Below, in pieces: positions 5,608-29,824 of a stretch of DNA of 38,790 nt; position 1 is the stretch's first letter, and each line of letters starts with the position of its first letter. The stretch is from Clostridia bacterium (GTDB lineage Bacteria > Bacillota > Clostridia > Oscillospirales > CAG-272): positions 1-38,790 of the forward strand of contig JAFQFS010000096.1 of the NCBI GenBank assembly GCA_017398585.1, read 5' to 3'. The notes under the pieces are model-generated. The model saw only the letters and a list, made by a program, of their open reading frames with translations, had not been told where the DNA came from and searched no databases. The translations under genes and the position numbers were made by a program.

Positions 5608-5665
5608 AAAACAGCCGTTTTGTGGGGATTTTACCCCGTGAAACGGCTGTTTTCTGTGTTTTTAT
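5608..5665 (+). terminator. Intrinsic terminator of pyk
   Basis: A 13-bp perfect stem (5608-5620 with 5641-5653) contains an inner GGGG/CCCC pair (5624-5627 with 5634-5637). A T-rich stretch follows to about 5665. Confidence 0.88.
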
Positions 5666-5716
5666 GCCCGTTTTCAATTGTGAACGAACGTGGGAAAAAT
5701 GTGGGAAAAAGTCGGG

Positions 5717-5745
5717 ACGACAAAACGGAATCGCGGTGGTATAAT
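5717..5745 (+). promoter_or_regulatory. Promoter of the phage-derived operon
   Basis: ACGACA (5717-5722), 17-base spacer, TATAAT (5740-5745), preceded by TGG to give an extended -10. It is the only convincing promoter seen for the 12.4-kb operon and resembles host promoters in this window. Confidence 0.65.
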
Positions 5746-5753
5746 ATAGTCAC

Positions 5754-5767
5754 AACGAAAGTTCGTT
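5754..5767 (+). promoter_or_regulatory. Operator-like palindrome just downstream of the phage-operon promoter
   Basis: AACGAAAGTTCGTT is a perfect 6-bp inverted repeat with a 2-base centre, placed where transcription would begin. GAACGAAC also occurs at 5682-5689, upstream of the -35, as an inverted match to GTTCGTTC at 5761-5768. A regulator binding both could control the operon. This is inference from symmetry and position. Confidence 0.4.
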
Positions 5768-5827
5768 CGCCAAAAAGCGCACGATGATGCGGCACTTCGG
5801 GGGACGGCGGAAAGGAGAAACGGGTAT

Positions 5828-6217
5828 ATGGATGAAACGGAAGTGACGGAAAACGGCGGCGGCCCCGATCCGAAGCAGCGCGGTGTGGCGTATGCGATGG
5901 TGCGCGGAGAGAAGACGCTCGACGAGGTACTGGAACAGTTCGGGGTCGGCGAGGCAGAATTCACCGGGTGGGTGTGCGGCGGACAGTTCACGGATTACGC
6001 GGCGTCGCTGGCACGCGGGTTCGCGGAGGCGGATGCGCCGTATGTCTGGAAGGATCTGCTGGGGCTGATTCACGGCGGAAGCGTTCCGGCGATCCGGCTG
6101 TACTTTGATCTTCTGACAAAGAAGACGGCGGGACGCGGCTGTGAACGTCCGACAGCGGCAGAGCTTGCGGGACTGCGGGAAAGCATTTTCGGCGATCCCG
6201 CGGAGGGAACGTCATGA
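5828..6217 (+). CDS. Terminase small subunit
   Basis: 129 residues. The N-terminal half has a helix-turn-helix-like segment (KTLDEVLEQFGVGEAEFTGW), followed by a helical part ending SVPAIRLYFDLLTKK, a pattern seen in small terminases of Gram-positive siphophages. Small terminase recognises phage DNA and recruits the large subunit for packaging. In a gene transfer agent this protein typically has relaxed specificity. The start follows AAAGGAG by about 10 bases. Its stop overlaps the large-terminase start by 4 bases (ATGA), a sign of translational coupling. The call rests on position and weak motif similarity. Confidence 0.72.
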   Translation: MDETEVTENGGGPDPKQRGVAYAMVRGEKTLDEVLEQFGVGEAEFTGWVCGGQFTDYAASLARGFAEADAPYVWKDLLGLIHGGSVPAIRLYFDLLTKKTAGRGCERPTAAELAGLRESIFGDPAEGTS

Positions 6218-7530
6218 CAGTGCGCGGGGACGGATATGTGTTCGGCGGAAAGCACTGTGAGTACATGCGGCGTGCCTATCGTGCAACGGTCAATGTGGCG
6301 GAAGGCGCGGTACGCGCGGGGAAAACGGTCGACAACGTGTTCGTGTTTGCGGCTCTGCTTGAAGATTCACCGGACCGGTTCCATCTCGCGACCGGCTCGA
6401 CCATCGGGAACGCCAAGCTCAACATCGGGGACTGCAACGGTCTCGGTCTCGAACACATCTTCCGGGGACGGTCAAAGTGGACGAGATACCGTGACAACGA
6501 GGCGTTGTGCGTACAGACGAAACGGGGTGAGCGCGTGATTATCTTTGCGGGCGGAAAAAATTCCGATTCGTACAAGAAGATCCGTGGGAATTCCTACGGC
6601 ATGTGGATCGCGACGGAGATCAATCTCCACGCGGACACGATCATTCAGGAGGCGTTCAACCGCCAGCTTGCCGCACGCGACCGGCGGATTTTCTGGGACC
6701 TTAACCCCTGTACGCCGAACGCGCCCATCTACCGCGATTACCTCAACAAATATGAGGAAATGCGGCGGTCGGGGGAAGTGCGGGAGGATTTCTACAACTA
6801 CGCGCACTTCACCATCTTCGACAATCCGGTTATCACAGAGGAGAGGCTCGGCGAAATCGTCGCACAGTATGATAAATCGTCGGTATGGTACCGGAGGGAC
6901 ATTCTCGGAGAGCGGTGCGCGGCGGAAGGGCTGATTTACCGGAAATTCGCGGACGCTCCGGGGGAATTTCTCACGGATTCCGTGGATGTGAGGGACATCC
7001 GGTTCGTGAACGTCGGAATCGACTTTGGCGGAAACCGGTCGAAAACCACATTTGCGGCAAGTGCGTTTCTGGACGGAGGACGGATCGTTGTGCTGCGCGA
7101 CCATGCGGTCGCCGGCGGAAAGGGAGAGATCGATGCCGAGCGAATCAACCGCGAGTGCCTGCGGTTTCTGCAAGGACTGCGGCGGGACTATCCCGGGGTG
7201 TACATCAAGTACATTTTTGCGGACAATGAGGCACAGTACCTTATCAACGGACTGCGCCGGTATCTGGCAGCGTCCGGAGAGACGGCGAAGGTACAGGATG
7301 CGGCAAAACGCCGGATCTGCGACCGGATCGCGTTCGTGAATCACCTCATGGCGGAAGGAAAATTCCGCATCATGCGGGAATGCACAAGGCTGCGGGACGG
7401 CCTATGCGGAGCGGTATGGGATCCGGATTCGGCGGAGGACAAGCGGCTCGACGATTTTACGTCCGATATCGACATCCTCGATGCGATGGAATATTCGATC
7501 GAGCGGTACATGAATCGGACCAATTCATGA
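6214..7530 (+). CDS. Terminase large subunit (ATPase and nuclease)
   Basis: 438 residues, normal for TerL. The ATPase domain has a variant Walker A, EGAVRAGKT (30-38), and a Walker B with catalytic Glu in MWIATEIN (130-137). A coupling-type segment, WDLNPCTPNA, follows near 161. The RNase H-like nuclease has Asp270 in VGIDFGG, Asp337 in IFADNEA, and an acidic cluster DFTSDIDILDA around 414-424. All catalytic positions look intact, so this motor is probably functional. It cuts and pumps DNA into the prohead through the portal. It begins within the small-terminase stop; the portal follows after 15 bases. Confidence 0.95.
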   Translation: MTVRGDGYVFGGKHCEYMRRAYRATVNVAEGAVRAGKTVDNVFVFAALLEDSPDRFHLATGSTIGNAKLNIGDCNGLGLEHIFRGRSKWTRYRDNEALCVQTKRGERVIIFAGGKNSDSYKKIRGNSYGMWIATEINLHADTIIQEAFNRQLAARDRRIFWDLNPCTPNAPIYRDYLNKYEEMRRSGEVREDFYNYAHFTIFDNPVITEERLGEIVAQYDKSSVWYRRDILGERCAAEGLIYRKFADAPGEFLTDSVDVRDIRFVNVGIDFGGNRSKTTFAASAFLDGGRIVVLRDHAVAGGKGEIDAERINRECLRFLQGLRRDYPGVYIKYIFADNEAQYLINGLRRYLAASGETAKVQDAAKRRICDRIAFVNHLMAEGKFRIMRECTRLRDGLCGAVWDPDSAEDKRLDDFTSDIDILDAMEYSIERYMNRTNS

Positions 7531-7545
7531 AGGAGAAGGTATGGA

Positions 7546-8904
7546 ATGATCGACAATGAGATTCTGGAATTTCTCGGAGAGCGCGGGCTTGCGGCGGAAT
7601 CCGTGATGTACGCATACGTCCGGGAATGGGAAATGTGGTGGCGCGGGAAGAACCGGGCGTTCCACGAGTATCTCGAAAACAATGCCATGGGACGTCCGGT
7701 GCGCCGCGAGATGTTCCGCATGAACATGGCGAAGAAGATCTGCGAGGACTGGGCGGCGGTGCTGCTGAACGATCGCACGGTGCTGTCCGTTGCGGATGAG
7801 GCGGGGGATGCGTTCGTGAAGAAGGTCTTCGCGGAAAGCGGATTCCTGCGGCAGGCGAACCGTCTTGTGGAAAAGGCGTTTGCCGTCGGGACGGGTGCGG
7901 CGATCCTGCGCATCGCCGATTGTCCGGTGAAGGACAGTGTGCTGTCTGCAGACGAAGGAACGCGTCTGACGTTTGAATTCGTGGATGCGGCGCACATTGT
8001 CCCGCTGTCCGTGCAGAACGGCAGGATCACCGAGGCGGCGTTCGTATCCGAAGGTGTCGAACGCGGACGGGAGTATGTCTATCTGGAAACGCACACATTC
8101 GAGGACGGCGGATACTGTATCCGCAACGCGTTCTTTGACCGCGAGGACGGTGTGCTGAAGGAAAGGGACGGCGGAAAGTACGCGAACGTTATCAAAACAC
8201 GTTCGCCGGTACCGTTTTTCGCAATTCTTACGCCGAACATCGTGAACCACATCGACGAAGGGTCCGGCATGGGCATGTCGGTGTTCGCAGATGCGCTCGA
8301 CTGCCTGCGCGGTGTGGATCTGGCGTTCAACAATTTCTGCCGTGACATCAAACTGGGCGGGAAAAAGGTGTTCATCAATCAGTCCCTCGTCCGGCGTGAC
8401 GAGAACGGGAATGTGTACACGCCCGACGACGTGGCGCAGCAGCTGTTCGTGACCATCGGCGACACGGACATCGCAGATCATCCGATGATTACGGAACACA
8501 ATCCCGAACTGCGTGCAGCGGACAATGCAGAGGCGGTACAGAGCCAGCTCGACTATCTGTCTTTCCGCTGCGGACTCGGCGCGCATCACTACACGTTCGG
8601 CGGGATGGAGGGGCGTGCAAAACTGACCGCGACACAATATATGGGGGAACGGCAGGACATGATGCAGAACGCTGTGAAGCATCAGAAAAACGTGGACGCA
8701 TTTCTCCGCGGCGCGGTGCGTGCGCTGCTGTGGTGCGCGGCGGAAGTGTATCGGCTGCCGGTCGACGCTTCTGCAGAGATCACGGTGACGTTCGACGACT
8801 CGTACTTCACGGATACCGAAAGTCAGCGTTTGCGTGACCTCGACGAAGTGAAAGCGGGGATCCTGACGGTCGAAGAGTACAGAAGAAAGTGGGTTGAGGT
8901 GTAA
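7546..8904 (+). CDS. Portal protein (SPP1 gp6/A118 type)
   Basis: 452 residues, typical of SPP1-like portals. An N-terminal helical region contains EWEMWWRGKNRAFHEY, and the middle shows RMNMAKKICEDWAAVLLND and AFAVGTGAAILRI, segments often seen in this family. The later SGMGMSVFADALDCLRGVD stretch and the long helix AVQSQLDYLSFRCGLG fit the stem and crown regions. Twelve copies form the DNA entry ring at one capsid vertex. The start is preceded by GGAGAAGG with 6 bases spacing; an out-of-frame ATG at 7541 is ignored. Unlike A118-type phages, no MuF-like minor head gene follows. Confidence 0.9.
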   Translation: MIDNEILEFLGERGLAAESVMYAYVREWEMWWRGKNRAFHEYLENNAMGRPVRREMFRMNMAKKICEDWAAVLLNDRTVLSVADEAGDAFVKKVFAESGFLRQANRLVEKAFAVGTGAAILRIADCPVKDSVLSADEGTRLTFEFVDAAHIVPLSVQNGRITEAAFVSEGVERGREYVYLETHTFEDGGYCIRNAFFDREDGVLKERDGGKYANVIKTRSPVPFFAILTPNIVNHIDEGSGMGMSVFADALDCLRGVDLAFNNFCRDIKLGGKKVFINQSLVRRDENGNVYTPDDVAQQLFVTIGDTDIADHPMITEHNPELRAADNAEAVQSQLDYLSFRCGLGAHHYTFGGMEGRAKLTATQYMGERQDMMQNAVKHQKNVDAFLRGAVRALLWCAAEVYRLPVDASAEITVTFDDSYFTDTESQRLRDLDEVKAGILTVEEYRRKWVEV

Positions 8905-8905
8905 G

Positions 8906-9358
8906 ATGCCCAGAATTTCGGACATTTTCGGCAGCGAAAAGCTGTCGTACGAAGAATTTGTGAAAAAGGCGGCGGAGGCGGGCGGCGAGTTCGGCGATGT
9001 TGCGGAGATGCGTAAGGCACACACGGCGGAGATGAACCGTCTGCGGGTGACCGGTGCCGTGGAACGTGAGGCAATGCGTGCCGGCGCGAAAAACAGCGGT
9101 CTGCTCATGCGTGTGATCGACATGGGCAGCGTGACCGTGGACGACAGCGGCGTACACGGGATCGCCGAGCAGATCGGAAAACTGAGGGAAAGCGATCCCT
9201 ATCTGTTCGCGGAAAAGGAACCGGCACCCGTCCCCGTGAAGGAAACCGTAACGGTTCCCGCGATGACGGTCAGCACCGGCGCACCGCACGGCAGGGAGAG
9301 CGTGAATCCCGACCTCCTGAGCGACGCGGACTATTATGCCAGCCGCATGAAGCAGTAA
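8906..9358 (+). CDS. Capsid scaffold (phage GP20-like minor structural protein)
   Basis: 150 residues, somewhat short for the family (often about 180-200). The N terminus is a short unique segment, then a charged helical part, then GAKNSGLLMRVIDMGSVTVD and GIAEQIGKLRESDPYLF. This ending matches the conserved C-terminal block of GP20 scaffolds. These proteins form the internal scaffold for coat assembly. The start lies directly after the portal stop with GAGGTG as ribosome binding site. The C-terminal third is Pro/Val-rich and looks disordered. No head protease gene is nearby, in keeping with a scaffold that leaves intact. Confidence 0.8.
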   Translation: MPRISDIFGSEKLSYEEFVKKAAEAGGEFGDVAEMRKAHTAEMNRLRVTGAVEREAMRAGAKNSGLLMRVIDMGSVTVDDSGVHGIAEQIGKLRESDPYLFAEKEPAPVPVKETVTVPAMTVSTGAPHGRESVNPDLLSDADYYASRMKQ

Positions 9359-9371
9359 ACCATGCAGAAAT

Positions 9372-9445
9372 TCTGCAAATTCATTTGTTTAAAGTTTTTT
9401 GAAAAGGGTTCGGGAAAAACTTTTTTTCAAAAAAGTTTTCCCCGG
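9372..9445 (+). repeat. Dispersed hairpin element, copy R2, directly before the coat gene
   Basis: Core 9391-9445: AAAGTTTTTTGAAAAGGG, then a near-perfect hairpin (about 9412-9443) with a T-run/A-run stem top. An upstream TCTGCAA (9372-9378) matches the distal block of copies R6-R8 but is 12 bases closer. The hairpin ends 19 bases before the coat start. No U-tract follows on either strand, so it is not an ordinary terminator. Confidence 0.75.
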
Positions 9446-9464
9446 AAAAGAAAGGATTAATACT

Positions 9465-10556
9465 ATGGCTAAACTTGATTTTACCGTAAAGCAGATCGCG
9501 CGTGAGGCTCTTCCGCGTCTGATCGACAACCTTGTATTCCCGAATCTGGTCTACAAGGAAACCATTCCGGGCAATGCCGCGAAGAAGGGCGACGTCGTTT
9601 CCGTGCGCTGTCCCGTCCGTCTGGAAGCAAACGACTTTGACGCTTCCGCCGGTATCTCCGCGCAGAATCTTGACAACGACACCATCGACGTCAAGCTCGA
9701 CCACATCGCGACCGTTGACCTTCAGCTCGGTGCGATCGAAGCGGCGTGCGATTTCGATTCCGTGACCCGCCAGTTTATCGAACCGGCTGCGGCGGCGCTC
9801 GCCGAAAAGATCAACGCGGAAGGTCTCGCACTTTACCGCGACGTTCCCTACATTGCTGGCGAAGCGGGCACCGTTCCGGACGGTCTCGACGACATCGCTC
9901 AGGCTTCGTACATGCTCGACATGAACAAGGTCCCCTTTGGCGGCCGATGCGCGGTATGGAGTCCGCTTGCGACATCCAAGCTCAAGCAGGTTCCCGCCAT
10001 TGTGAACGCGGAAAAGTGCGGCTCCACGAACGCTCTCCGTACCGGCGCGATCGGCCGTGTGTTCGGCATTGACAATTACATGTCCCAGGCGGTCGCGGAT
10101 CATGCTCCGGCATACACCGGTACTCTGACTCTCGCGAATGCCGTGACCGACGCGGAGGAAGTGACCTTCACCGCGTCCGCATCCGGTACTCTTCAGCACG
10201 GCGACATCCTGAAGATCGGCGGCAAAACCTACGTCGTGAAGGCGGACGCGGCGGTGTCCGGTTCTTCCGTGACCGTGCAGATTTATCCGAAGCTGACCGC
10301 GGACAAGGATGCGGCTGCCGAACTTGTTCCGGCGCATTCCGCAAACCTGGTGTTCCACCCGAATGCATTTGCGTTCATCTCCCGTCCGCTTCAGACGCCC
10401 GCCGGTGTCGAATCCTACGTGACCAGCTACAACGGCATTTCCCTGCGCGTCGTCCGCGGCTACGACATCCGCTACAAGCGTGAGATCCTGTCCATGGATG
10501 TGCTGTACACCTTCCAGACCCTTTATCCGGAACTGGCGGTACGTTATCTCGGCTGA
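9465..10556 (+). CDS. Major capsid (coat) protein, P22 coat-like
   Basis: 363 residues from MAKLDFTVKQIAREALPRL. An in-frame upstream ATG lies inside the repeat and lacks a ribosome binding site, whereas this ATG follows AAAGGA by about 8 bases. The sequence LVFPNLVYKETIP, DVVSVRCPVR and DTIDVKLDHIATVDLQ matches the P22 coat-like HK97-fold family common in Firmicutes phages. An insertion between about residues 207 and 300 is rich in short strands (TLTLANAV, VTFTASASG), like the I-domain or a decoration-like insertion. The end ILSMDVLYTFQTLYPELAV is also family-like. It is the shell protein of the particle and should be made in the highest amount. Confidence 0.9.
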   Translation: MAKLDFTVKQIAREALPRLIDNLVFPNLVYKETIPGNAAKKGDVVSVRCPVRLEANDFDASAGISAQNLDNDTIDVKLDHIATVDLQLGAIEAACDFDSVTRQFIEPAAAALAEKINAEGLALYRDVPYIAGEAGTVPDGLDDIAQASYMLDMNKVPFGGRCAVWSPLATSKLKQVPAIVNAEKCGSTNALRTGAIGRVFGIDNYMSQAVADHAPAYTGTLTLANAVTDAEEVTFTASASGTLQHGDILKIGGKTYVVKADAAVSGSSVTVQIYPKLTADKDAAAELVPAHSANLVFHPNAFAFISRPLQTPAGVESYVTSYNGISLRVVRGYDIRYKREILSMDVLYTFQTLYPELAVRYLG

Positions 10557-10581
10557 TCCGATGCGGACGGGGGAGAAGTCA

Positions 10582-10932
10582 ATGACGACTTACGAATTTT
10601 ACCGTGACGTCTGCGGCGGACATGCGGACGAAGCTTCGTTCGATTCTGCCGTCGGCGCAGCAGACACGGTCATCCGTGCTCTCCTTTATCCGGCGGATCC
10701 GGACGGTTTTTGCGGCAGCCGGGCGGATGCGTTCCGTCGTGCGGTTTGTCTGCAGGTCGACCATACCCTTGAGGATCCGGGCCGCATGAGAGTTCGGAGT
10801 GAGTCCCTCGGCGACCGTTCCGTGACCTACGAGACGGAGGACGCGGGAGAAATTTTCGTGAAGGGCGTTTCCGTATCGCCGCAGGCGGTTTTGATTCTTG
10901 AAGTGTGCGGATGCCTGACGAGATGGGTGTGA
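10582..10932 (+). CDS. Head-tail connector (gp6/YqbG-like adaptor)
   Basis: 116 residues. It is mostly helical at the N terminus (EASFDSAVGAADTVIRALLY and RRAVCLQVDHTL), followed by a segment on which short strands predominate (DRSVTYETEDAG) and a C-terminal helix. This layout is that of the first neck adaptor protein that sits under the portal. The ATG at 10582 follows GGGGGAG; an in-frame ATG at 10561 lies upstream without a site. It follows the coat gene by 25 bases. Function is assigned mainly from position and size. Confidence 0.7.
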   Translation: MTTYEFYRDVCGGHADEASFDSAVGAADTVIRALLYPADPDGFCGSRADAFRRAVCLQVDHTLEDPGRMRVRSESLGDRSVTYETEDAGEIFVKGVSVSPQAVLILEVCGCLTRWV

Positions 10933-10939
10933 GGTGTAT

Positions 10940-11284
10940 ATGGGGCTGTTTGCGAAGGATTCCGCGGTGCTCCTGAAATACCGTCCCGATCCGGCGGCGG
11001 CGGTTCCGGTGTACGATCGGTATGTGCTCGAAAACGTGCTGGTACGTGAGACATTTGCGGCGGATGCGGAAGCTGTGGAGGACGACGGCGCGGTGCTGTA
11101 TTTTCTGGAAGATGCAAGCGTCTGCCGTACGGAAAACGGCGGAACCGTGGAGTTTCCGCGACTGGCGAAGGGGGACCGGTGCCTCCTTCACGCCGGGACG
11201 GACGCGGAAGTGTCCATGCGTGTGGCGGAGGCGGGATATTTTACCGGAAGTACGCTCGCGCATGTCCGCATCCGGCTGAAGTGA
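10940..11284 (+). CDS. Head-closure protein (Minor_capsid_1 position)
   Basis: 114 residues, mainly beta-type sequence with YVLENVLVRETF and a closing LAHVRIRLK strand. It occupies the position of the stopper or head-closure gene in A118-type neck modules. GAGG (10931-10934) precedes the ATG; a GTG at 10934 is an alternative start adding two residues. I do not recognise a family from sequence alone, so the role is inferred from order and length. Confidence 0.6.
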   Translation: MGLFAKDSAVLLKYRPDPAAAVPVYDRYVLENVLVRETFAADAEAVEDDGAVLYFLEDASVCRTENGGTVEFPRLAKGDRCLLHAGTDAEVSMRVAEAGYFTGSTLAHVRIRLK

Positions 11285-11295
11285 GGTGCAGACGG

Positions 11296-11652
11296 ATGGT
11301 GAAAGTGACAATTTCGGCGGATGGGATCGGAAATGCGCTGACGGCGCGTATCCCGTCCGCGTCACGGCAGGTGCAGGAGGCGGTGATCGCCTCATGCGAA
11401 CCGTTCGTCCCGTACCGCACGGGGGAACTGTGCCGCTCCGCTGTACCGGCGGGTTCGGGGGCGGACGGCATGGTCATCTACACCGCGCCGCACGCGGCAC
11501 TGTGCTATTATGCGGAACGGCCGTTTTCGAAAAAGGTACATCCGCAGGCGTGCGCGCGCTGGTTTGAGGCGGCGAAAGCGGCTGATCTTGCGAAATGGAT
11601 CGCAGCGGCTGCGTCGGCGCTGACGGATGATCGTGCGGGAAGGAGAGGATAA
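11296..11652 (+). CDS. Neck/minor capsid protein (Minor_capsid_2-like)
   Basis: 118 residues. The segment FVPYRTGELCRSAVP followed by TAPHAALCYYAE and HPQACARWFEAAK matches the HK97 gp10/Minor_capsid_2 pattern, in which a promise of two-sided neck contacts is made by a TGxLxxS motif, an aromatic YA(x)YYY-type turn and an HP...WFE segment. Such proteins join the head completion ring to the tail terminator. It starts 11 bases after the previous stop with GAGGTG upstream. The downstream gene begins 3 bases after its stop. Confidence 0.75.
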   Translation: MVKVTISADGIGNALTARIPSASRQVQEAVIASCEPFVPYRTGELCRSAVPAGSGADGMVIYTAPHAALCYYAERPFSKKVHPQACARWFEAAKAADLAKWIAAAASALTDDRAGRRG

Positions 11653-11655
11653 ACG

Positions 11656-12069
11656 ATGGAAAACGAACTTTACGTGATGGAGAAGATCCTCTGCGATTAC
11701 CTGGACGGCTGCGGGACGGTCTTTCTGCCCGAAACGTGGCGCGACGGGGCGGCCTGTGTGTCGCTGACCGGCGGTCAGAACGTGTACCGTACGTATGTGG
11801 ACGGCTCGTACCTCGCGGGGATCCCGTTTGATGTGCGCATCCGGAAGGAAAAATGCGCGGACAATGTGGCGGACAAGCTCGACGCGGCGGCGTTTTATGC
11901 GTCACTGGCGGAGTACATCCACGATACGCCGATGGCGGTGGAAGGATGGCGTGTTCTGCCGTCCTCGGGCAAGCCGTTCGGCGGGGCGTACGCGAAATCT
12001 GCCATCTACGACGACGGGACGGAAGAGTTCCGTGCGGGATATTTACTGGAATTTTATATCAAGAAATAA
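11656..12069 (+). CDS. Tail terminator (Minor_capsid_3-like)
   Basis: 137 residues with a strand-helix-strand composition: the N-terminal helix EKILCDYLDGCGTVF, then FDVRIRKEKCADNVADKL, and a closing AGYLLEFYIKK strand. This fits tail terminator proteins that cap the tail tube and join it to the head. The AGGAGAGG site at 11640-11647 precedes the start. Assigned from size, secondary-structure pattern and position directly before the tail tube gene. Confidence 0.7.
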   Translation: MENELYVMEKILCDYLDGCGTVFLPETWRDGAACVSLTGGQNVYRTYVDGSYLAGIPFDVRIRKEKCADNVADKLDAAAFYASLAEYIHDTPMAVEGWRVLPSSGKPFGGAYAKSAIYDDGTEEFRAGYLLEFYIKK

Positions 12070-12083
12070 GAAAGGGAGTTCTA

Positions 12084-12563
12084 ATGGCAATCGTCAACAG
12101 AGCGGAGAGAAAGCATTATCTGAACACCGGTACAGAGGAAAGTCCGGTGTGGAGTCCGATCGGGGAAGGGTTCACCGAGTTCATGGAGTCGAAGAACGCT
12201 GTGAGCTACGGCAGACGCTACATCCACGAGGCGACCAAGCGTACCGACGTGACCGGCTATGCGCCGGTTATTGACTACGAATTTGAAGTTTACCGCGGCA
12301 ACGCCGTGATCGAAGTCCTGCGCGAGATCACCGACCGTGAAATGTGCGGCGACCGTGCGCAGGTGGACGTTCTCACGGTCGACATGTTCGATGAGTCCGG
12401 CACGGGCGGCGCGTACCGCGCGATCCGCAGACGCTATTCCGTCATTCCCGACGAATGCGGAGAGGGTACGGATGCGCTCTGCTACACCGGCACGATGAAG
12501 GCGGTCGGCGATATCATTCCCGGCAAATACGTGGCGGCGAGCGGCGTGTTTACTGCGGACTAA
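12084..12563 (+). CDS. Major tail tube protein
   Basis: 159 residues, a typical size for a single-domain tube protein. The start AIVNRAERKHYLNTG followed by WSPIGEGFTEFMESKNAV, then YAPVIDYEFEVYRGNAVIEV, are segments common in tail tube proteins of Clostridia siphophages and related contractile systems. It polymerises around the tape measure to form the tail. AAGGGAG precedes the ATG. No sheath gene is present, so the tail would be non-contractile. Confidence 0.8.
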   Translation: MAIVNRAERKHYLNTGTEESPVWSPIGEGFTEFMESKNAVSYGRRYIHEATKRTDVTGYAPVIDYEFEVYRGNAVIEVLREITDREMCGDRAQVDVLTVDMFDESGTGGAYRAIRRRYSVIPDECGEGTDALCYTGTMKAVGDIIPGKYVAASGVFTAD

Positions 12564-12593
12564 GTGAAACACAGAAAGGAGGTTTGCGAACCA

Positions 12594-12977
12594 ATGGAAC
12601 ATACATGGAACTGGAACGGGACAGAATATCCGTTTGACATCAGCGAAAGTGAGAGTATGGCACGCATGTGCGAGGCTTTGAACGCGCTGCGCGGGGATAT
12701 CGGCATGCTTGGCGGCGAAGCTGTCAGCGCAAGCGACACGCTCCGCGAGCAGTGTCAGATCATCCGCCGCTTCTTCGATACCGTGCTCGGCGAGGGTGTG
12801 GGCGAGACGATCTGCGGTACGGCATACAGCGCAGATGCGCATACCACGGCGTACATGGAATTTATTCTGTTCGTCAACACACAGGTCGGCGCATTCCGCG
12901 AAAAGGTCGCGGCGGTGGAGGAAAAGTACATGAGCCGTGCGGCGGATCTGGAACAGGCCGGGGCATATGGCGCATAA
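12594..12977 (+). CDS. Tail assembly chaperone-position protein
   Basis: 127 residues, largely helical (SMARMCEALNALRGDIGML, then DTLREQCQIIRRFFDTVLG and a C-terminal EEKYMSRAADLEQAG). A perfect AAAGGAGG lies 9 bases before this ATG; a GTG at 12564 in frame is less likely. It stands where siphophages carry the first tail chaperone, between tube and tape measure. Its last 11 bases overlap the following Gp15-like gene. The two are related by a +1 frame step, so the classical -1 slippage fusion would not join them. Confidence 0.6.
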   Translation: MEHTWNWNGTEYPFDISESESMARMCEALNALRGDIGMLGGEAVSASDTLREQCQIIRRFFDTVLGEGVGETICGTAYSADAHTTAYMEFILFVNTQVGAFREKVAAVEEKYMSRAADLEQAGAYGA

Positions 12978-13575
12978 TCTTCTGACCGACCGGCTTCCCG
13001 ACAGCATTTCCGTCTGCGGAAGGCGGTATCCGATCTACACGGATCACAGACGGTGGATCCTTGCGGTCGAACTGTTCGCGGAAGACCTTGTAGATGTGGG
13101 CGTGAAGGTGGAGTGTGCGGTGAAGCTGATTTTTCCGGGAGAGAATCCCTTGAAGCACATGCGGAGTCTGCGGGGTGTGACGATGGAGAAGACCGTGGAC
13201 GTGTACCGGGAACTGGTGCGCGGCATCACGTGGTTTGCGTCCTGCGGAAGAACGCATGGCTTAGGAGAGGGTTCCGGCGGGGGACGTCAGGAGCCGGTGT
13301 TCGATTTCACGGCCGACGACGAGCGCATTTGCGCGGCGTTCCGGCAGGTCTACGGGATCGACCTGTGCGATCCGTTGGTGAAGCTGCATTTCTGGACGTT
13401 CATGGCGCTCCTGAGGAATCTGCCGCGGGAGACGGAATTTATGCGGGTCGTAAACCTCCGCATGACGGACACGGCGAGGATCGAAAACGACGATCTGCGC
13501 CGTCGGGTCCGTCGTGCCAAGGCAAATGTGAGAATCCGAAAAGAAGACAGAGAAAAGGAGAAAAACTATGGCTGA
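12967..13575 (+). CDS. Bacteriophage Gp15-family protein (second tail chaperone position)
   Basis: 202 residues. The N terminus RLPDSISVCGRRYPIYTDHR and the block FDFTADDERICAAFRQVYGI, DLCDPLVKLHFWTFMALLR and NLPRETEF are diagnostic of the Gp15 family of A118-type phages, which lies just before the tape measure. The C-terminal tail is highly basic (RRRVRRAKANVRIRKEDREK). It probably guides tail assembly. The ATG at 12967 overlaps the preceding gene and has no good ribosome binding site, so re-initiation is likely. Its end overlaps the tape measure start by 8 bases. Confidence 0.85.
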   Translation: MAHNLLTDRLPDSISVCGRRYPIYTDHRRWILAVELFAEDLVDVGVKVECAVKLIFPGENPLKHMRSLRGVTMEKTVDVYRELVRGITWFASCGRTHGLGEGSGGGRQEPVFDFTADDERICAAFRQVYGIDLCDPLVKLHFWTFMALLRNLPRETEFMRVVNLRMTDTARIENDDLRRRVRRAKANVRIRKEDREKEKNYG

Positions 13576-14356
13576 TGGATCGGTAACGATCGGCGTTGTA
13601 CTGGATACGGCGGCGTTTTCGGCGTCCGCTGCGGCGGTGCAGGGACAGATCAGCGGTCTGGCGGCGGGGATCAACCAGTCGCTGGCGAGCGCGTTTTCCG
13701 GCACGACCATTGACGCCTCCCTTGTTGCGGCGATCGCGAATCTGGCATCCGGCATCACGTCGGCGTCTGCGGGGGTGGAACAGTCGATGCTGGCACTTGC
13801 GCAGACATCCACGGGGGCGTTCGTAAACGGCGGCTGGGCGGAAGCCGGTCTGCAGGCGGCAGCGGCACTGGCCGGCGGGATTACCTCCGGCGGAGGTTCT
13901 GTCGTTTCGGCGGCTCAGTCGACCGCACGTTCGGCGGCTGCGTCGTTTGACGACGGCTCATGGGTGTCCATCGGGACAAACATGATGACTGGGATCGCAG
14001 AGGGGATTTACGCGGCGGGAGCGGAGGTCGTCGCAGCGATCCGCGAAGTGGCGAGCGAGGCGGAGGAGGCCGTGAAGGCATATTACGCGATCCGTTCCCC
14101 GTCCGCGCTGATGCGCGACGAAGTCGGCGTGATGATCTCGCGCGGGATTGCGGAAGGGATCCTGTCCGGCTCGGGCTTTGTGCGGGGCGCGATGGAGAAC
14201 GTCGGACGAAACACGGACCGTATGCGCAGGACGGAGGGGACATCCGCCGGGGGACGGAGTGTGACCCAGAACATTTATCTGCGCGACAGCGACGCGTCGC
14301 CGTACAAGACGGCGCGCCGCATCCGGAGGGAAAGTGAGGCAGTTTTCAGAATCTGA
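13568..14356 (+). CDS. Very short tail tape measure protein
   Basis: 262 residues. It is Ala/Gly/Ser-rich, without Cys, and almost wholly helical (QISGLAAGINQSLASAF; IREVASEAEEAVKAYYAI). The block YYAIRSPSALMRDEVGVMIS followed by RGIAEGI is the conserved ending of tape measure proteins (S-P-S...G..GI). The usual proteins of this type run to 700-1800 residues, so here only the start and the C-terminal block remain, with no lysozyme or peptidase insert. At about 1.5 angstrom per residue the tail would be at most some 39 nm. Reading frame and neighbours are intact, so it looks like a short version rather than a fragment. Confidence 0.75.
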   Translation: MADGSVTIGVVLDTAAFSASAAAVQGQISGLAAGINQSLASAFSGTTIDASLVAAIANLASGITSASAGVEQSMLALAQTSTGAFVNGGWAEAGLQAAAALAGGITSGGGSVVSAAQSTARSAAASFDDGSWVSIGTNMMTGIAEGIYAAGAEVVAAIREVASEAEEAVKAYYAIRSPSALMRDEVGVMISRGIAEGILSGSGFVRGAMENVGRNTDRMRRTEGTSAGGRSVTQNIYLRDSDASPYKTARRIRRESEAVFRI

Positions 14357-15221
14357 TATGGAGAAATACTATAAGATCCGGCTGACGTCCGGAGGACATA
14401 CCCTGGAACTTTCCCCCGACGCGCCTTGCCGTCTGCTTGCCGGCGGTCTGATCGGGTTTGACTGTACCGGACTGGACGTTTCTGTCCGTTCGTATGCGTC
14501 CCGCCACGGCGGTTATCCGGAGCGGAGACGCTTTGCGGAGAGGGAACTCGGTCTGGTGTTCGAGATTGACGCCGGTCCGGACGAAACCGAGGAGATCCGC
14601 CGCCGCATTGTGACGATGATGAATCCGGTGCAGACCTGCGAGATCGATGCGGAGATTTACGGCGTGCATCGGAAAATTTCCGTTATTCCCTGCGGCGAGG
14701 CACTGTTTGAGCGCGAGACCATGCACGACCGTCCGGAGGTCTCGCTGGAATTTATCGCACCGGATGTCTTTTTCCGTGCGGCGGAACCGGAGGAAATCGT
14801 GTTCCGCGATCCGGTCCCGCTTCTGACGGCACCGATGTCGTTCTTTGCGGGGGCGGGCATGACAACAGGTATTATGCGTACGACGGACACCACACGGCTC
14901 ATCAACGAAGGGGATGCAGAGTGCGGGATTGTTGCGGAAATTACGGCGGACGGCGGCGACATTGTGAATCCGGGGATTTCGTGCGGAGAGGAATTTGTCC
15001 TGTGTCCGGTGACGCTGTCTGACGGAGATACGCTCGTGATCGACACGCGCGACCGCCGGAAGAACATTTACCTCAACGGCGAGAGGTACTTTTACTTCGA
15101 CCGCCGCAGCACGTTCTTCAGCCTGCCGGCGGGGGAAAATATTGTGACCGTTCTCTGTGACGACGGAGCCGAGTACATCCGTGCGAGACTGGAATACGTG
15201 CCGCTCTACTTCGGCATCTGA
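14334..15221 (+). CDS. Distal tail protein (Dit, siphovirus tail component family)
   Basis: 295 residues from a GTG that has GGAGGG upstream and overlaps the tape measure by 23 bases; an in-frame ATG at 14358, right after the tape measure stop, is the alternative (287 residues) but has no clear site. The N-terminal half shows the Dit pattern with YPERRRFAERELGLVFEIDA and the DETEEIRRRIVTMMNP helix. The C-terminal beta-rich part has LINEGDAECGIVAEITADGG and VIDTRDRRKNIYLNGERYF. Dit forms the hub ring at the tail tip. Confidence 0.85.
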   Translation: MRQFSESDMEKYYKIRLTSGGHTLELSPDAPCRLLAGGLIGFDCTGLDVSVRSYASRHGGYPERRRFAERELGLVFEIDAGPDETEEIRRRIVTMMNPVQTCEIDAEIYGVHRKISVIPCGEALFERETMHDRPEVSLEFIAPDVFFRAAEPEEIVFRDPVPLLTAPMSFFAGAGMTTGIMRTTDTTRLINEGDAECGIVAEITADGGDIVNPGISCGEEFVLCPVTLSDGDTLVIDTRDRRKNIYLNGERYFYFDRRSTFFSLPAGENIVTVLCDDGAEYIRARLEYVPLYFGI

Positions 15222-15233
15222 CGGAGGTTGGAA

Positions 15234-16304
15234 ATGGATTTGTATTTTCTTGATGCGCAGTTTGAACCGGTCACCGGTGCGGTCGACGTGTGTTCGTCGG
15301 TCGTGTGGTCGGAACGGTATTTTGAAAACGGCTCATTTACCCTGCATTTTCCGAAGGAACTTCTGCCGTCCGTGTACGACGCCGTCTATGTCCGTACCGG
15401 AGTGGAAAACGGGCGGATCAAATGCGGACGGATCGCGTATGTGATCACGGACGATGAGGAGGAGAGCGGCGGATGTGAGATGGGCGGCAGCCTGCTCGAA
15501 TCCCTGCTGGATGACCGCATTCTTGCGGGAAAGGGCTGTTATACCGGTACGTTGACCGAAGCGGTCTGCGCGGCGGTTTCGGACAATCTCCGTGACTGCG
15601 GAGTTGTTCTCGGGGACAGCGTGTTCATTGACGACGCGGTCAGTCTGACGTACGAGTGGGACACGCTTTCGGAATGGCTGTACTCTGTTCTGCGTCCGTT
15701 CGGAGCGTCGTACCGGATTGAACTGGATCCCGACCGGAACGTGCCGGTGTTCCGCATCGTACGGGGACTTGACCGCAGTTCCGGCGTCGGCGATTCGCTG
15801 ACGGACCATTACAACACATGGCAGGCGGTGTTCTCCACATCCTTCGGGAACATTTCCTCCATCCGTTTTGAACGTGATACATCCGGACAGAAGAATGTTG
15901 TGTACGTCGAAGGTTCGGACGGCACGACGGTCACGGTGGACGGAAGCGGAGGCGGACCGAAACGTGAGATGTACAAGTTGGTGTCGGACGTAAAGCCTGC
16001 CGATTTTGCGGATACGGCTTCCTATACGGGCGCTCTGCAGATGCGCGGTGAGGAAATCCTCGCAAATTATACTGAAGTGTTCCACATTGCTGCCGAAACG
16101 GATGCTGGGGTTTCCCCGAAATACGGAGTGGACTACGCGCTCGGCGACATCTGCGACGTTGCGGATCATGCACTCGGACTAACGTTCGGTATGCGCCTGA
16201 CGGCGGTGGACGACGTGACAGAAAACGGTACGCGCACCCTGTACCCTTCGTTCGGTGAGGAACTCCGTCAGGTACGCCGTCTGATCGGCGGAAGACGGTA
16301 TTAG
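15234..16304 (+). CDS. Tail tip protein (ReqiPepy6 Gp37-like / Tal)
   Basis: 356 residues from the ATG with GGAGG 6 bases upstream. The N terminus has FEPVTGAVDVCSSVVWSERY and FENGSFTLHFP, then GRIAYVITDDEE and LLESLLDDRILAG, and the C-terminal NYTEVFHIAAETDAG and GVDYALGDICDVAD. This is the siphovirus ReqiPepy6 Gp37-like fold, similar to the N-terminal baseplate-hub domain of tail-associated lysins. No peptidase or lysozyme domain is attached, so it would close the tail tip but not digest the cell wall. It follows the Dit gene by 12 bases. Confidence 0.82.
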   Translation: MDLYFLDAQFEPVTGAVDVCSSVVWSERYFENGSFTLHFPKELLPSVYDAVYVRTGVENGRIKCGRIAYVITDDEEESGGCEMGGSLLESLLDDRILAGKGCYTGTLTEAVCAAVSDNLRDCGVVLGDSVFIDDAVSLTYEWDTLSEWLYSVLRPFGASYRIELDPDRNVPVFRIVRGLDRSSGVGDSLTDHYNTWQAVFSTSFGNISSIRFERDTSGQKNVVYVEGSDGTTVTVDGSGGGPKREMYKLVSDVKPADFADTASYTGALQMRGEEILANYTEVFHIAAETDAGVSPKYGVDYALGDICDVADHALGLTFGMRLTAVDDVTENGTRTLYPSFGEELRQVRRLIGGRRY

Positions 16305-16324
16305 ACGGGAGAATGACTGCCCGG

Positions 16325-16380
16325 AAAGGTTTTGGAAAGGGGTTCGGGGGAAACCTTTTCCTTAAAAAGGTTTCCCCCGG
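16325..16380 (+). repeat. Dispersed hairpin element, copy R3, directly before the first fibre gene
   Basis: AAAGGTTTTGGAAAGGGG leads into a hairpin (16345-16379) whose stem is CGGGGG plus AAACC/GGTTT. Both halves carry the CC variant, as in copies R1 and R4. The hairpin ends 27 bases before the fibre start codon. There is no U-tract on either strand. Confidence 0.75.
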
Positions 16381-16406
16381 AAAATTTCATTTTATAAGGA
16401 GAACTT

Positions 16407-17132
16407 ATGGCAGATATTATTCTTCCCGTGTTCGGCGGGATGTTTGATTCAACGACTGTTGTGGATACGGTGAACGGATTTCCGCGCGGGGACAAGGCGG
16501 TCGATTCCTCGTTTTTTGCGAAGATGATCTCCTCTTTTTATTCCGACGGTATTCTTGCGGCCGGTGACTACGCGCAGAACGGGTTCAAAGTTGTGCCTGC
16601 CGGCGGTCTGACCGTGACGGCGGCGCCCGGGATTGCATGGATCCGCGGATATATGGCGTGGATGCAGGAGGCGCAGAGTTTCGTTCTCAGCGCCGGCCAT
16701 TCGTATTCGGTTGTACTTCGTCTGAATACCGCTTCCGGGGAATTTACTCTGGTGGCGACAGAGACCACGTCCTCTGTTCCGGTCAGAACCGAACAGATCT
16801 GCGACCTTGTGTTAGCGGAGATCAGGATTCCGTCCGGTTCGGCGGAGTTGACGGAGAGCATGATCCGTGATACCCGCAGCAATTTGGAAAAATGCGGGTT
16901 CGTGACCTGTACCGTTGACGCGCTGCAGACGGTACCGTTTGCGGAGGACGCTGGTTCGGTTGGCGGCATACCCGGTAATGCGCTTGTACGCAGGGACGGC
17001 GGGACGATGAGCGGCAATCTTCGTGCCGCCCCGGAGATGACCGGGATTTCCGTCGTACGCAACATTGCCTACGGTACCGCACTTCCCGACGTAATGGAGG
17101 AAGGCGAGATTTTCATCCTCCTCTCGGAATAA
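16407..17132 (+). CDS. Tail fibre / upper baseplate protein
   Basis: 241 residues. The N-terminal part (RGDKAVDSSFFAKMISSFYS, then GILAAGDYAQNGFKV and GGLTVTAAPGIAWIRGYM) resembles the conserved N-terminal module of siphophage baseplate or receptor-binding proteins, which attach to Dit or Tal. The C-terminal segment SVGGIPGNALVRRDGGTMSG is a classical fibre-type repeat (DGGTMSG) found ahead of collar or receptor-binding tips. The protein ends shortly after, so the tip may be supplied by the next gene. The start has AAGGAG 6 bases upstream. Confidence 0.75.
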   Translation: MADIILPVFGGMFDSTTVVDTVNGFPRGDKAVDSSFFAKMISSFYSDGILAAGDYAQNGFKVVPAGGLTVTAAPGIAWIRGYMAWMQEAQSFVLSAGHSYSVVLRLNTASGEFTLVATETTSSVPVRTEQICDLVLAEIRIPSGSAELTESMIRDTRSNLEKCGFVTCTVDALQTVPFAEDAGSVGGIPGNALVRRDGGTMSGNLRAAPEMTGISVVRNIAYGTALPDVMEEGEIFILLSE

Positions 17133-17144
17133 CGGAGGTATGGC

Positions 17145-18233
17145 ATGGCGATTTTATTCCGTAATATATCCGATCTCACGATCGGCGGAATGACGGTACG
17201 TCTGACGGTTTATTCCGGTGCTTCGGGACGCATCCGTGTGGAGATTGCGCCGTACAACAGCGCAGTTACGACGGCATACACCGGTTCCCTGGATGTCACG
17301 GTCACGTACAACGGAGAGGCGAAAGCTCTCACAGCCAGTCCGTTCACCGGGGCCGTATCCGCGGTATTCGCAGAAGCGGATGGTGTAAAGAGCGTCACGC
17401 TTTCTTCCGCAGCTGCAATCGTCTGCAGAGGGGCATCGTCCTCTTCTCTTACCGTTTCGTGGAAGGGGGACGGCACCGTTGCGGCGCCGGAACTTGCGGT
17501 ATCCGATTATTCGGGTCTGCTGACCGGGCAATCTTCGCGCATCGAGTGGACGGTGGACGGGGTTCCGGAAGGATACCGTGCATATACCATCGGTATATGG
17601 TACCACTTTGCGCCGGCGACGAAGAGCAATCCCGCATATACACGGAGCTGTGTGATGGACGGAAAGACATCGCAGACTGCGTTTGAACATACCATCGCGG
17701 AACTTACGGATCAGAACGTTGTGTTCTACCGAATCGCAGTCGGACTATATCCGGAGGACACCGCGGAAACGGCGGGACGCGACGACTATGTCCTATATCT
17801 GGAGATGGACAGTCCGGCGTATGTCTGTTCCGGCAGCAGCGTCTATACGATCGCACCGGTCAATCTTCGTTACAGCGGCGTACGGAAGAACCGGACAGTC
17901 ACCCTCACCTGGGATACACTTTCCGTCGCGACGGCAACGGAAGGTTTCCAGATCGAATGCAGATACGATAATGCTGCGTGGGAATTGCTGTACTGGGGAA
18001 CCCTGAGCTCCAATTCCTATTATCACACGATCACCGGTGATCCGGAGACGGTGACGTTCCGGATCCGTTCGTACTCAAACCGCAGCAAGCACGAATTGTC
18101 CGCTTATCTGTACGGTCCGCAGGTGGAGGTCGGGCGATCCAATGTTTATGTCGGCCATGGCGGAACCGTTGTTCCGGCGGCGGAGGTATACATTGGTTCC
18201 GTAAGAACCGATGCGGTCCTGAACGTCGGATGA
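17145..18233 (+). CDS. Tail fibre tip / adhesin with Ig or Fn3-like domains
   Basis: 362 residues, nearly all beta-type sequence. An N-terminal domain (RLTVYSGASGRIRVEI) resembles a baseplate-binding strand domain. A second, Ig- or fibronectin III-like domain at about 240-320 has NLRYSGVRKNRTVTLTWD and GFQIECRYDN. The C-terminal stretch SNVYVGHGGTVVPAAEVYIG looks like a tip repeat. It is the last gene of the operon and the best candidate for receptor binding. GGAGG lies 6 bases before its ATG. No enzymatic motif is visible. Confidence 0.68.
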   Translation: MAILFRNISDLTIGGMTVRLTVYSGASGRIRVEIAPYNSAVTTAYTGSLDVTVTYNGEAKALTASPFTGAVSAVFAEADGVKSVTLSSAAAIVCRGASSSSLTVSWKGDGTVAAPELAVSDYSGLLTGQSSRIEWTVDGVPEGYRAYTIGIWYHFAPATKSNPAYTRSCVMDGKTSQTAFEHTIAELTDQNVVFYRIAVGLYPEDTAETAGRDDYVLYLEMDSPAYVCSGSSVYTIAPVNLRYSGVRKNRTVTLTWDTLSVATATEGFQIECRYDNAAWELLYWGTLSSNSYYHTITGDPETVTFRIRSYSNRSKHELSAYLYGPQVEVGRSNVYVGHGGTVVPAAEVYIGSVRTDAVLNVG

Positions 18234-18252
18234 TGGAAATTCCCCCGGATCG

Positions 18253-18290
18253 GGAAATAAAAAAAGCGTGTACTGTTTTTGCGGTACACG
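18253..18290 (-). terminator. Intrinsic terminator of the TRAP transporter operon
   Basis: On the minus strand CGTGTAC (18284-18290) pairs with GTACACG (18267-18273), followed by CTTTTTTTATTT. It lies beyond the plus-strand terminator, so the two convergent operons end in interlocked signals. Confidence 0.75.
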
Positions 18291-18320
18291 GCATATACTG
18301 ATAACACAGAGAAAGAACGG

Positions 18321-18380
18321 CGTAAGCACCGGCCGGCATCGTGAGAGATGCCGGATCCGGTGCTTACGTTTTTGTTTATT
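18321..18380 (+). terminator. Intrinsic terminator of the phage-derived operon
   Basis: A 12-bp perfect stem (18321-18332 with 18357-18368) encloses a second stem (18335-18340 with 18347-18352). TTTTTGTTTATTT follows. It closes the operon 88 bases after the last gene and overlaps no host gene. Confidence 0.85.
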
Positions 18381-20395: not shown

Positions 20396-20431
20396 AGGTA
20401 GCTCCTGTGGGGTGGGATGGAGAAACAGCAG

Positions 20432-20938
20432 TCAGTTCTGCTGGTAAATTTCGATTTTCGTGTTTCTGCCGCAGAGTTCGCGGAGATTGATGCGTTCACC
20501 GTGGATGGTCAGATAATGGTCGTAGACTGTTCCGACGATGTAGTTCAGGCTGTCGTAGGTGTACGTGATCCCCGTGACGACGATCGCGCCGTCGTCGGCG
20601 TAGGAGAATTTCCACGTCGGCTGATCCGCTTCCGTCGGCATGCCCGCGCCGAAGGTGTAGTACCGTGCTTCGACCACTCGGATGATCCCGTCCGCCGCCT
20701 CGAACACGTCGATGACGGGGGATTTGTTCACCGAATGGGTGAAGTCGACTTCGAACCGCGTGCCGTCCGGGCAGTCATAGCGGGCGTACACTTCGCCGGT
20801 CTCCGCGTTGCGCACGACGAGAGTATCGCGGTGCGTGAGATGGATGGTGAGAAGGAGTCCGGCAGAAACAAACAGGGCCGCAGTGACAATCGCTGCGGCC
20901 GCTGCCTTTTTACCGGAGAAAAATGTTCGGATGTTCAA
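20432..20938 (-). CDS. DUF1850 protein, TRAP-associated
   Basis: 168 residues with one membrane segment near the N terminus (AAAAIVTAALFVSAGLLLTI) and an extracytoplasmic domain with DFTHSVNKSPVIDVFEA and EARYYTFGAGMPTE, typical of DUF1850. These proteins are found between TAXI-type binding proteins and fused TRAP permeases, role unknown. The only plausible start is TTG at 20938, 2 bases after the stop of the binding-protein gene, with no good ribosome binding site, so coupled translation is likely. The next Met is far inside the domain. Confidence 0.85.
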   Translation of the reverse strand: MNIRTFFSGKKAAAAAIVTAALFVSAGLLLTIHLTHRDTLVVRNAETGEVYARYDCPDGTRFEVDFTHSVNKSPVIDVFEAADGIIRVVEARYYTFGAGMPTEADQPTWKFSYADDGAIVVTGITYTYDSLNYIVGTVYDHYLTIHGERINLRELCGRNTKIEIYQQN

Positions 20939-20940
20939 AC

Positions 20941-21891: not shown

Positions 21892-21980
21892 AACATTCCC
21901 TGCTTTCGAATTAGTGATAGATTTTGAAATTTTTCCGGCGGAGGTTTCAAAAAACTGCCCCGCCAATCAAAATTAGTATT

Positions 21981-29536: not shown

Positions 29537-29824
29537 AAATAAAAAACGTCCTGCAGCATGACTACAGGACGCAGAACTTGCGCGGTACCACCCGGATTTA
29601 CTCAGAACAAAACCTGAGTACACTTATCGGGACACAGCGTCTGCCGATCCCTTTTCCCTGTAACGTGGGACATACGGCGCGGGCTACTCATGAAAATCAC
29701 GTTCGCCTGCGCGGCTCAGGGACTACTTCATCCGATGCTGACGGCAGGGATCCCAGCTTCCCCCGCTCTCTGTACGACGCACCCCGGATTACTTCTTCCC
29801 GTCACAGCCGTTAAATTATCTGTA
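29537..29824 (-). ncRNA. T-box leader, valine specific, controlling the kinase-valS operon
   Basis: The minus strand carries the T-box core GGGTGGTACCGCG at 29581-29593 and, after it, a terminator: 29547-29556 with 29562-29571, then a U-tract at about 29534-29546. Stem I is folded by GGCT..GGGA with TCCC..AGCC and, above the AGTA loop, ATCCG with CGGAT. The specifier position between CGGAT-GAA and G-TCCC reads GTA (29724-29726), a valine codon, in agreement with valS downstream. The UGGU bulge would pair with a discriminator A. Uncharged tRNA-Val should favour the antiterminator and read-through. Confidence 0.93.

Follow-up and report, generated by a model that had tools for sequence, protein, structure and literature searches.

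The window analyzed here, a 38,790-nucleotide stretch of Clostridia bacterium DNA, makes up contig C90 of a draft genome of 3.18 Mb (GCA_017398585.1; 178 contigs, 74% complete) that we call G000; the genomes compared with it are numbered in the same way. It contains 17 collinear, same-strand open reading frames (ORFs; positions 5828 to 18233, ~12.5 kb) that lead from the small terminase subunit to the fibers, flanked by pyk (4094 to 5530) and by TAXI-TRAP transporter genes (18398 to 21966). The preliminary description of a 17-gene structural-only operon lying between host genes was confirmed by the ORFs and by family profiles. All 17 frames are open, as it had stated, and no integrase, repressor, replication, or lysis gene adjoining the cluster was found among the ORFs of the window. 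The cluster is a complete and intact set of short-tailed, siphovirus-type head and tail genes that is under purifying selection and has long been resident in the genus, and as a structural operon it probably encodes a domesticated phage particle that its host keeps, most likely a gene transfer agent (GTA).

The packaging and head genes (all genes of the cluster are on the + strand) begin with that for the small terminase subunit, TerS (5828 to 6217; phrog_24579, 1e-7). The large subunit, TerL (6214 to 7530), matched phrog_2 (2e-22) and the PBSX-family TerL model TIGR01547 (3e-25, below the cutoff). Its Walker A motif, Asp270, Asp337, and the acidic cluster near residue 420, which had been judged intact, are indeed in place and are conserved in 15 aligned TerL sequences. 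They are followed by the A118/SPP1-type portal (7546 to 8904; phrog_533, 3e-85; TIGR01542, 6e-40, below the cutoff), the scaffold (8906 to 9358; PF06810, 9e-15), and the P22-type coat protein (9465 to 10556; PF11651, 2e-41), and by these profiles the earlier assignment to the A118 and P22-coat kinds was right. The connector region comprises a head-tail adaptor (10582 to 10932; phrog_541, 3e-11), a probable stopper assigned from its position and with no family match (10940 to 11284), a Minor_capsid_2 minor head protein (11296 to 11652; PF11114, 7e-11; phrog_556), and a weakly matched tail completion protein (11656 to 12069; phrog_3266, 0.02).

The tail genes start with that for a probable major tail protein, also assigned from position (12081 to 12563; phrog_3099, 2e-41, a family of unknown function), and that for a tail-assembly protein matching the DUF6673 family (12594 to 12977). 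Gp15 (12967 to 13575; PF06854, 2e-29) is a probable chaperone of the tape measure protein. The latter (13568 to 14356) is short, with 262 amino acids (aa), and aligns to the C-terminal part alone of phage tape measure profiles (positions 944 to 1134 of 1224 in phrog_1686). The remaining genes encode the distal tail protein Dit (14358 to 15221; PF22768, 1e-8), a Tal-like or Gp37-like tail-tip protein (15234 to 16304; PF14594, 2e-30), fiber or tail-associated protein 1 (16407 to 17132; phrog_9534, 3e-25), and fiber protein 2, with a weak fn3 match (17145 to 18233; PF00041, 0.004, below the cutoff).

Upstream of TerS, a late-promoter signature on the + strand (5687 to 5722) consists of ~11-bp repeats of the GTGGGAAAAA type, including the direct repeats 5687 to 5697 and 5698 to 5708, and ends in GGGACGACA. 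It runs into a sigma-70-type promoter (5717 to 5745, + strand; ACGACA-17-TATAAT) with a TG before the −10 element (extended −10). After the −10 element, CGAAAGTTCGTTCG (5756 to 5769, + strand) forms an imperfect palindrome that may act as an SOS-type box; it is common to G004 and G022 and does not fit the pattern RAAC-N4-GTTY. A hairpin of pyk lies at 5608 to 5653. After the last gene, an inverted repeat (18312 to 18332 and 18357 to 18377, with a 24-nucleotide loop) is probably a bidirectional terminator that lies between the cluster and the TRAP genes. The single promoter described earlier was thus found, and the single terminator proved inexact, as a second strong hairpin of 17 pairs lies inside the cluster, between the Tal and fiber genes (16343 to 16381, + strand). 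This hairpin could be an attenuator or a partial terminator.

A search for the portal in 98 genomes (G000 and its relatives) found a close homologue in 16 of the 25 species of the genus that were examined, in one copy each and with no stop, and in 1 of 35 other genomes of the family (G047); G006 holds merely a distant phage portal (26% identity). Gene order is conserved across the cluster loci read, with some small genes missing in certain species and three clusters (G011, G019, and G023) ending at contig ends. The ORFs are full length across species, and the coat proteins of the carrier species are 54% to 95% identical. Host genes lie directly on either side of the cluster in all loci read, and the GC content of the cluster exceeds that of the flanks in 17 of 17 loci. 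The tape measure has 135 to 262 aa in 13 of the 16 genus clusters; its place is taken by a 66-aa ORF in G005, a fragment in G007, and an unrelated-looking 121-aa ORF in G013. The Gp15 chaperone is missing from G005 and G007 (loci L029 and L028) together with nearly the whole tape measure, and the head and tail-tip genes of these two loci remain open, a pattern of tail reduction. Database counterparts come from herbivore-gut metagenome-assembled genomes (MAGs) labeled Clostridia, Oscillospiraceae, or Ruminococcus (e.g., L046, from water buffalo cecum).

Ratios of nonsynonymous to synonymous substitution (dN/dS) were calculated pairwise with NG86 for seven genome pairs (105 gene comparisons, 3 with saturated dS). 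All 102 unsaturated comparisons gave values below 0.48, and TerL, portal, and coat, for which this calculation had been proposed, gave 0.06 to 0.32, well under 1. The fibers change fastest between sister species (fib2 dN/dS, 0.38 to 0.43). In each of the five compared pairs with unsaturated pyk, the dS of pyk falls within the spread of the cluster genes; between G000 and G022, the cluster values are 0.49 to 1.12, compared with 0.81 for pyk and 0.27 for ValRS, and exceed the latter. The claim that the cluster is domesticated and kept by selection is supported by its presence in 16 of 25 species, by full-length ORFs, by dN/dS, and by two findings described below, a regulator that tracks the cluster and the lack of an att-type empty site at pyk/TRAP.

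The host tree (ValRS, 24 genomes) and the cluster tree (TerL, portal, coat, Dit, and Tal, 17 genomes) have in common the clades {G008,G017}, {G013,(G001,G014)} and the union of these two, {G000,G022}, {G005,G007}, and {G003,G011,G012}. The host and cluster distance matrices are correlated (Mantel r = 0.78, p = 1e-4, 16 genomes), and the pattern of presence and absence corresponds to at least three changes on the host tree. The trees are in firm conflict at one point, over G005/G007, which the cluster data join with G009, whereas the host tree sets them at the base.

The pyk/TRAP locus was also compared across relatives, as had been suggested. G022 carries the cluster at the same site as G000. 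At the junction in the sister species G004, TerS is followed by TerL codons 1 to 349 fused to fiber codons 51 to 362, the product of a ~10-kb internal deletion. An att-type empty site was found in neither G022 nor G004, the two other species in which both genes could be placed together, and the hypothesis of such a site was rejected, as the gap in G004 is a deletion inside the cluster. The G004 remnant and the G022 cluster indicate that the ancestor of G000, G022, and G004 already had the cluster at pyk/TRAP. In G003, G005, G009, and G015, it is instead flanked by a DUF1934-like gene on one side and by a membrane protein gene and/or uvrA on the other (site-neighbor genes were named by eye), and in G023 the fiber end adjoins the same membrane protein gene. 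G000, G022, and G004 hold the PHP-EamA-DUF1934 group and the uvrA-membrane protein pair elsewhere, without the cluster, which makes it probable that the cluster was relocated in this subclade. In five species that lack the cluster (G002, G006, G016, G018, and G024), uvrA and the membrane protein gene are retained, and no remnant was found.

Several species have genes for a sigma-region-4-like protein and a small Zn-ribbon protein near TerS, either immediately upstream or some kilobases away. A profile built on the sigma-region-4-like protein (A2), scored in 26 genomes, matched at E values of ≤6e-25 in 17 of the 18 genomes with a cluster or remnant and in none of the 8 without (Fisher p = 6e-6 for the whole table, in which related genomes are not independent). 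Nine of these 17 genomes were in the query alignment, and 8 of the other nine matched; weaker matches occurred in the cluster-less genomes G006 (2e-16) and G016 (0.003). The regulator gene is on another contig than the cluster in G000 (C88, 19144 to 19491), G022 (C100), and G004 (C7). Its product matches RinA (3e-5) and ArpU (9e-5), both below the cutoffs, and among 15 members five match Sigma70_r4_2 and five match DUF1492. The Zn-ribbon gene upstream of it in G000 and G022 (L304 and L305) has no usual start codon where one would be expected, and an ACG start is possible.

The ~11-bp repeats upstream of TerS end, across species, in GGGAYGACA, followed by TATAAT. This pattern (5693 to 5745 in the window) gave 14 exact matches in the 26 genomes, of which 10 coincide with TerS promoters and 4 lie at other sites. 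They fall in 10 genomes, all with a cluster or remnant; the eight cluster-less genomes and the reversed control gave none. Three mismatches let in 22 of the 26 genomes, including cluster-less ones, and some of the reversed control; hence, the limit was set at ≤2 mismatches. RAAC-N4-GTTY boxes are present in 9 of 15 TerS promoters, compared with a mean of 0.15 and a maximum of 3 in 2,000 simple dinucleotide-block shuffles. All 12 lexA promoters that could be read have GAAC-N4-GTTT, which makes the RAAC-N4-GTTY box one of the LexA type of the genus. It also occurs in the unlinked regulator promoters of G000, G022, G007, and G014 and not in those of G004, G012, and G019.

Exact late motifs in G015 precede, on C70, genes for a small membrane protein, an M23 endopeptidase, and a 71-aa membrane protein (a lysis operon by eye) and, on C343, genes for fiber-like proteins. 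The motif also precedes a RepA_N initiator gene in G015 (C22; L409) and a D5_N primase gene in G004 (C109; L410); these replication genes could be parasites of the particle or helpers for it. A lysis cassette in G013 (C369) has the core and box of the TerS promoter of that genome, and lysis cassettes in G008 and G017 have the box only. In G000, host genes on contig C38 flank genes for a beta-helix fiber, an M23 endopeptidase, and small membrane proteins; the two G000 proteins scanned gave no Pfam holin match, and "holin-like" is a reading by eye. A small island in G022 (C40; L446) holds an S24-type repressor gene, a Lin1244-like gene, and fiber, holin-like, and M23 genes and no head genes. Among the weaker motif sites, nothing recognizable lies downstream of those on G014 C86 and G008 C15, no clear gene follows that on G012 C33 (2 mismatches), and that on C187 of the cluster-less G006 (≤2 mismatches) was taken as chance.

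Outside the genus, seven loci of other genera (L057, L058, L059, L061, L084, L087, and L094) have the Zn-ribbon and/or regulator gene first and an amidase gene last, followed by host-like genes, and four of them include a holin homologue. The preliminary description had named the same genes accompanied by an integrase and a lysis module as a finding that would speak against it; the lysis module was found in these seven loci, and no integrase was recognized in them by eye. Tape measure homologues occur in 39 related loci, some of which repeat one genome. They have 135 to 350 aa in 31 loci and 662 to 1004 aa in 8, of which three are end-cut; these long ones come from loci of phage arrangement. 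Among deposited phages, portal identity reaches 40% at most. Among the best 80 of 219 IMG/VR matches, no self-contained phage with a related portal of >50% identity was found, and the portal-coat gaps were longer below 49% identity. Loci L099 to L118 are IMG/VR contigs of 4 to 14 kb with this cluster type, catalogued as viruses. Still shorter clusters between host-like genes (L044, L045, and L090 to L092), in other families of the order, comprise TerL, portal, coat, connectors, and a tail-tip protein, some with an amidase or an NlpC/P60-like endolysin. The human fecal records MT835795 and MT836120 were set aside as ordinary phage arrangements in appearance. No description of this cluster was found in the open-license PMC set (subscription papers were outside its scope).

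Elsewhere in the window, no tRNA was found, and the single Rfam match is a T-box leader (29562 to 29814, − strand; 118 bits) that precedes a kinase-like gene and the gene for ValRS (26302 to 28920).

The particle is best read as siphovirus derived, domesticated, and GTA-like. Features by which a GTA is recognized were found: phage-type structural and packaging genes, with no replication or integration genes seen beside them in the loci whose ORFs were read; upkeep by the host lineage under purifying selection, with G005/G007 as a lateral exception; and a putative activator gene outside the structural operon that tracks the cluster. Of the earlier proposal, domestication and retention under selection stood, and the term GTA itself is our inference. 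In the mechanism proposed here, DNA damage would lift LexA-type repression from the regulator and from many operon promoters, after which the regulator would activate the late promoter. The P22-type head would be filled by a portal/TerL motor like those of PBSX, SPP1, and A118, and its cargo would probably be host DNA, as there is no phage genome left to package. Release would depend on holin and endolysin genes elsewhere in the chromosome, and a tail of ~40 nm (262 aa, at ~0.15 nm of tail per tape measure residue) would attach to sister cells.

More tentatively, the system could be a GTA with a dispersed regulon, in which an SOS-type switch acts through the unlinked RinA/ArpU-like activator on 11-bp-repeat promoters at several sites, with stepwise tail shortening under host control and an ancestral arrangement in other genera. 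The sites may comprise structural, lysis, and fiber operons and, in two species, replication genes that are perhaps particle parasites. The tail series may run from a 262-aa tape measure with its chaperone to one of 66 aa, or none, without it, as a siphovirus particle becoming short-tailed. The relatives in other genera, which hold the regulator and lysis genes in the operon, may preserve the ancestral state.

Several observations weigh against the GTA reading. The cluster is absent from 8 of the 25 species, and its chromosomal site differs between subclades. In approximately unbiased tests, the host-tree position of G005/G007 is incompatible with the cluster data, and their cluster-tree position with ValRS (p = 5e-6 and p = 0.04, respectively), so that lateral transfer probably occurred at least once, counter to strict vertical descent. 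RAAC-N4-GTTY is missing from the TerS promoters of G000 (the window), G003, G004, G012, G022, and G023, and no late motif was found upstream of the candidate fiber/lysis operon on G000 C38. Phage_holin_4_1 (PF05105), a candidate for the release gene that the cluster lacks, was not found in G000, and its distribution does not follow that of the cluster; M23 endolysin was dropped as a marker, with homologues in 25 of the 26 genomes and no tracking. Every genome compared is a draft MAG, and particle formation, packaging of host DNA, release, and transfer are predictions from gene content.

Some of these features would also suit other explanations. A PBSX-like particle, made and released by the host with host DNA or little DNA in it, could serve to kill or probe competitors rather than to transfer genes. 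The TerL match to the PBSX-family model (below the cutoff) and the rapidly changing fibers (fib2) are consistent with such a role, and the discussion of the Faecalibacterium GTA (FpGTA) in PMC12946183 leaves the same alternative open. The terminase and portal set is, however, full and conserved, which argues that DNA packaging matters, and we consider this explanation rather unlikely. A defective prophage remnant on its way out would account for the lack of integrase, replication, and lysis genes beside the cluster, the deletion in G004, the eight species without a cluster, and the lost or minimized tape measures of G005, G007, and G013. Yet broken genes or relaxed selection were found in G004 only; the frames are open and dN/dS is low across species at 54% to 95% coat identity, the same gene set is kept in 16 species, and the regulator and promoter are co-retained. 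The remnant explanation is thus already disfavored, and we hold it to be improbable.

Spread between hosts with phage help, by a capsid-forming satellite or a slow-moving structural cassette, could explain why sites differ between subclades, the G005/G007 tree conflict, and the late promoter before the primase gene of G004 and the initiator gene of G015. We give such a mobile element little credence: neither an integrase nor a repeat was seen at the window junctions, the site is constant within subclades, and the cluster is congruent overall with the host tree. The integrase and satellite regulators that mark capsid-forming phage-inducible chromosomal islands were likewise not among the ORFs beside the window cluster. 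With a genome 74% complete in 178 contigs, and with the G022 C40 island carrying a repressor and fiber and lysis genes, the cluster might also be taken for the structural half of an active temperate phage whose other modules are at another chromosomal site or absent from the MAG. This is very improbable given that host genes directly flank the cluster in all loci read and that the best 80 of 219 IMG/VR matches include no self-contained phage with a related portal above 50% identity.

GTAs are known from few lineages. If the GTA reading is correct, a genus of ruminant-gut bacteria has long housed a system of the siphovirus type, for which a candidate activator and a promoter signature are now at hand. 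That signature would find unlinked regulon members from sequence alone and would allow a pattern search for such particles in uncultured bacteria, and the series of related clusters would let tail reduction be followed. It also carries the warning that virus catalogues such as IMG/VR list contigs of this type as viruses.

By its description, the closest published system is FpGTA. According to PMC12946183, FpGTA I and II of gut Clostridia have a ~10-kb operon with TerS, TerL, portal, scaffold, and coat and no replication or integrase genes, and a second, unlinked operon encodes fibers, a receptor-binding protein, holin, and endolysin. Microscopy, proteomics, and sequencing describe podovirus-like, tailless-looking heads of ~40 nm with 8.4 to 8.9 kb of DNA, and the same paper counts PBSX and FpGTA alone as GTAs of Gram-positive bacteria. 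FpGTA shows such systems to be real in gut Clostridia, and its two-operon logic may apply here. The gut Clostridia host and the TerS-TerL-portal-scaffold-coat operon devoid of replication and integrase genes are shared; unlike FpGTA, whose particles have been seen, the present system is of the siphovirus type, with Dit, Gp15, and a short tape measure, and is known from its genes.

The cluster also resembles A118/SPP1-type siphophages of Bacillota and their gut relatives in the order of portal, scaffold, Gp15, and Dit/Gp37-like genes and in the RinA/ArpU-type late regulator, whereas in the related phage loci the portal and coat genes are 3 to 4 kb further apart and the tape measures have 662 to 1004 aa. 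PBSX of Bacillus subtilis is a defective phage of a Gram-positive host; the TerL of the present cluster matches the PBSX-family model below its cutoff, and the tail here is of the siphovirus type, with no contractile-tail genes seen. RcGTA of Rhodobacter capsulatus has a short tape measure, a GC content above that of its flanks, and an unlinked direct activator, GafA. The present cluster is likewise a head-tail cluster kept in the chromosome, with an unlinked regulator, a short tape measure, and a GC content above that of its flanks. It does not have the homologous capsid and portal of the RcGTA-like family, however, and differs in its P22-type coat (PF11651), A118/SPP1-type portal, Clostridia host, RinA/ArpU-like regulator, and SOS-type boxes.

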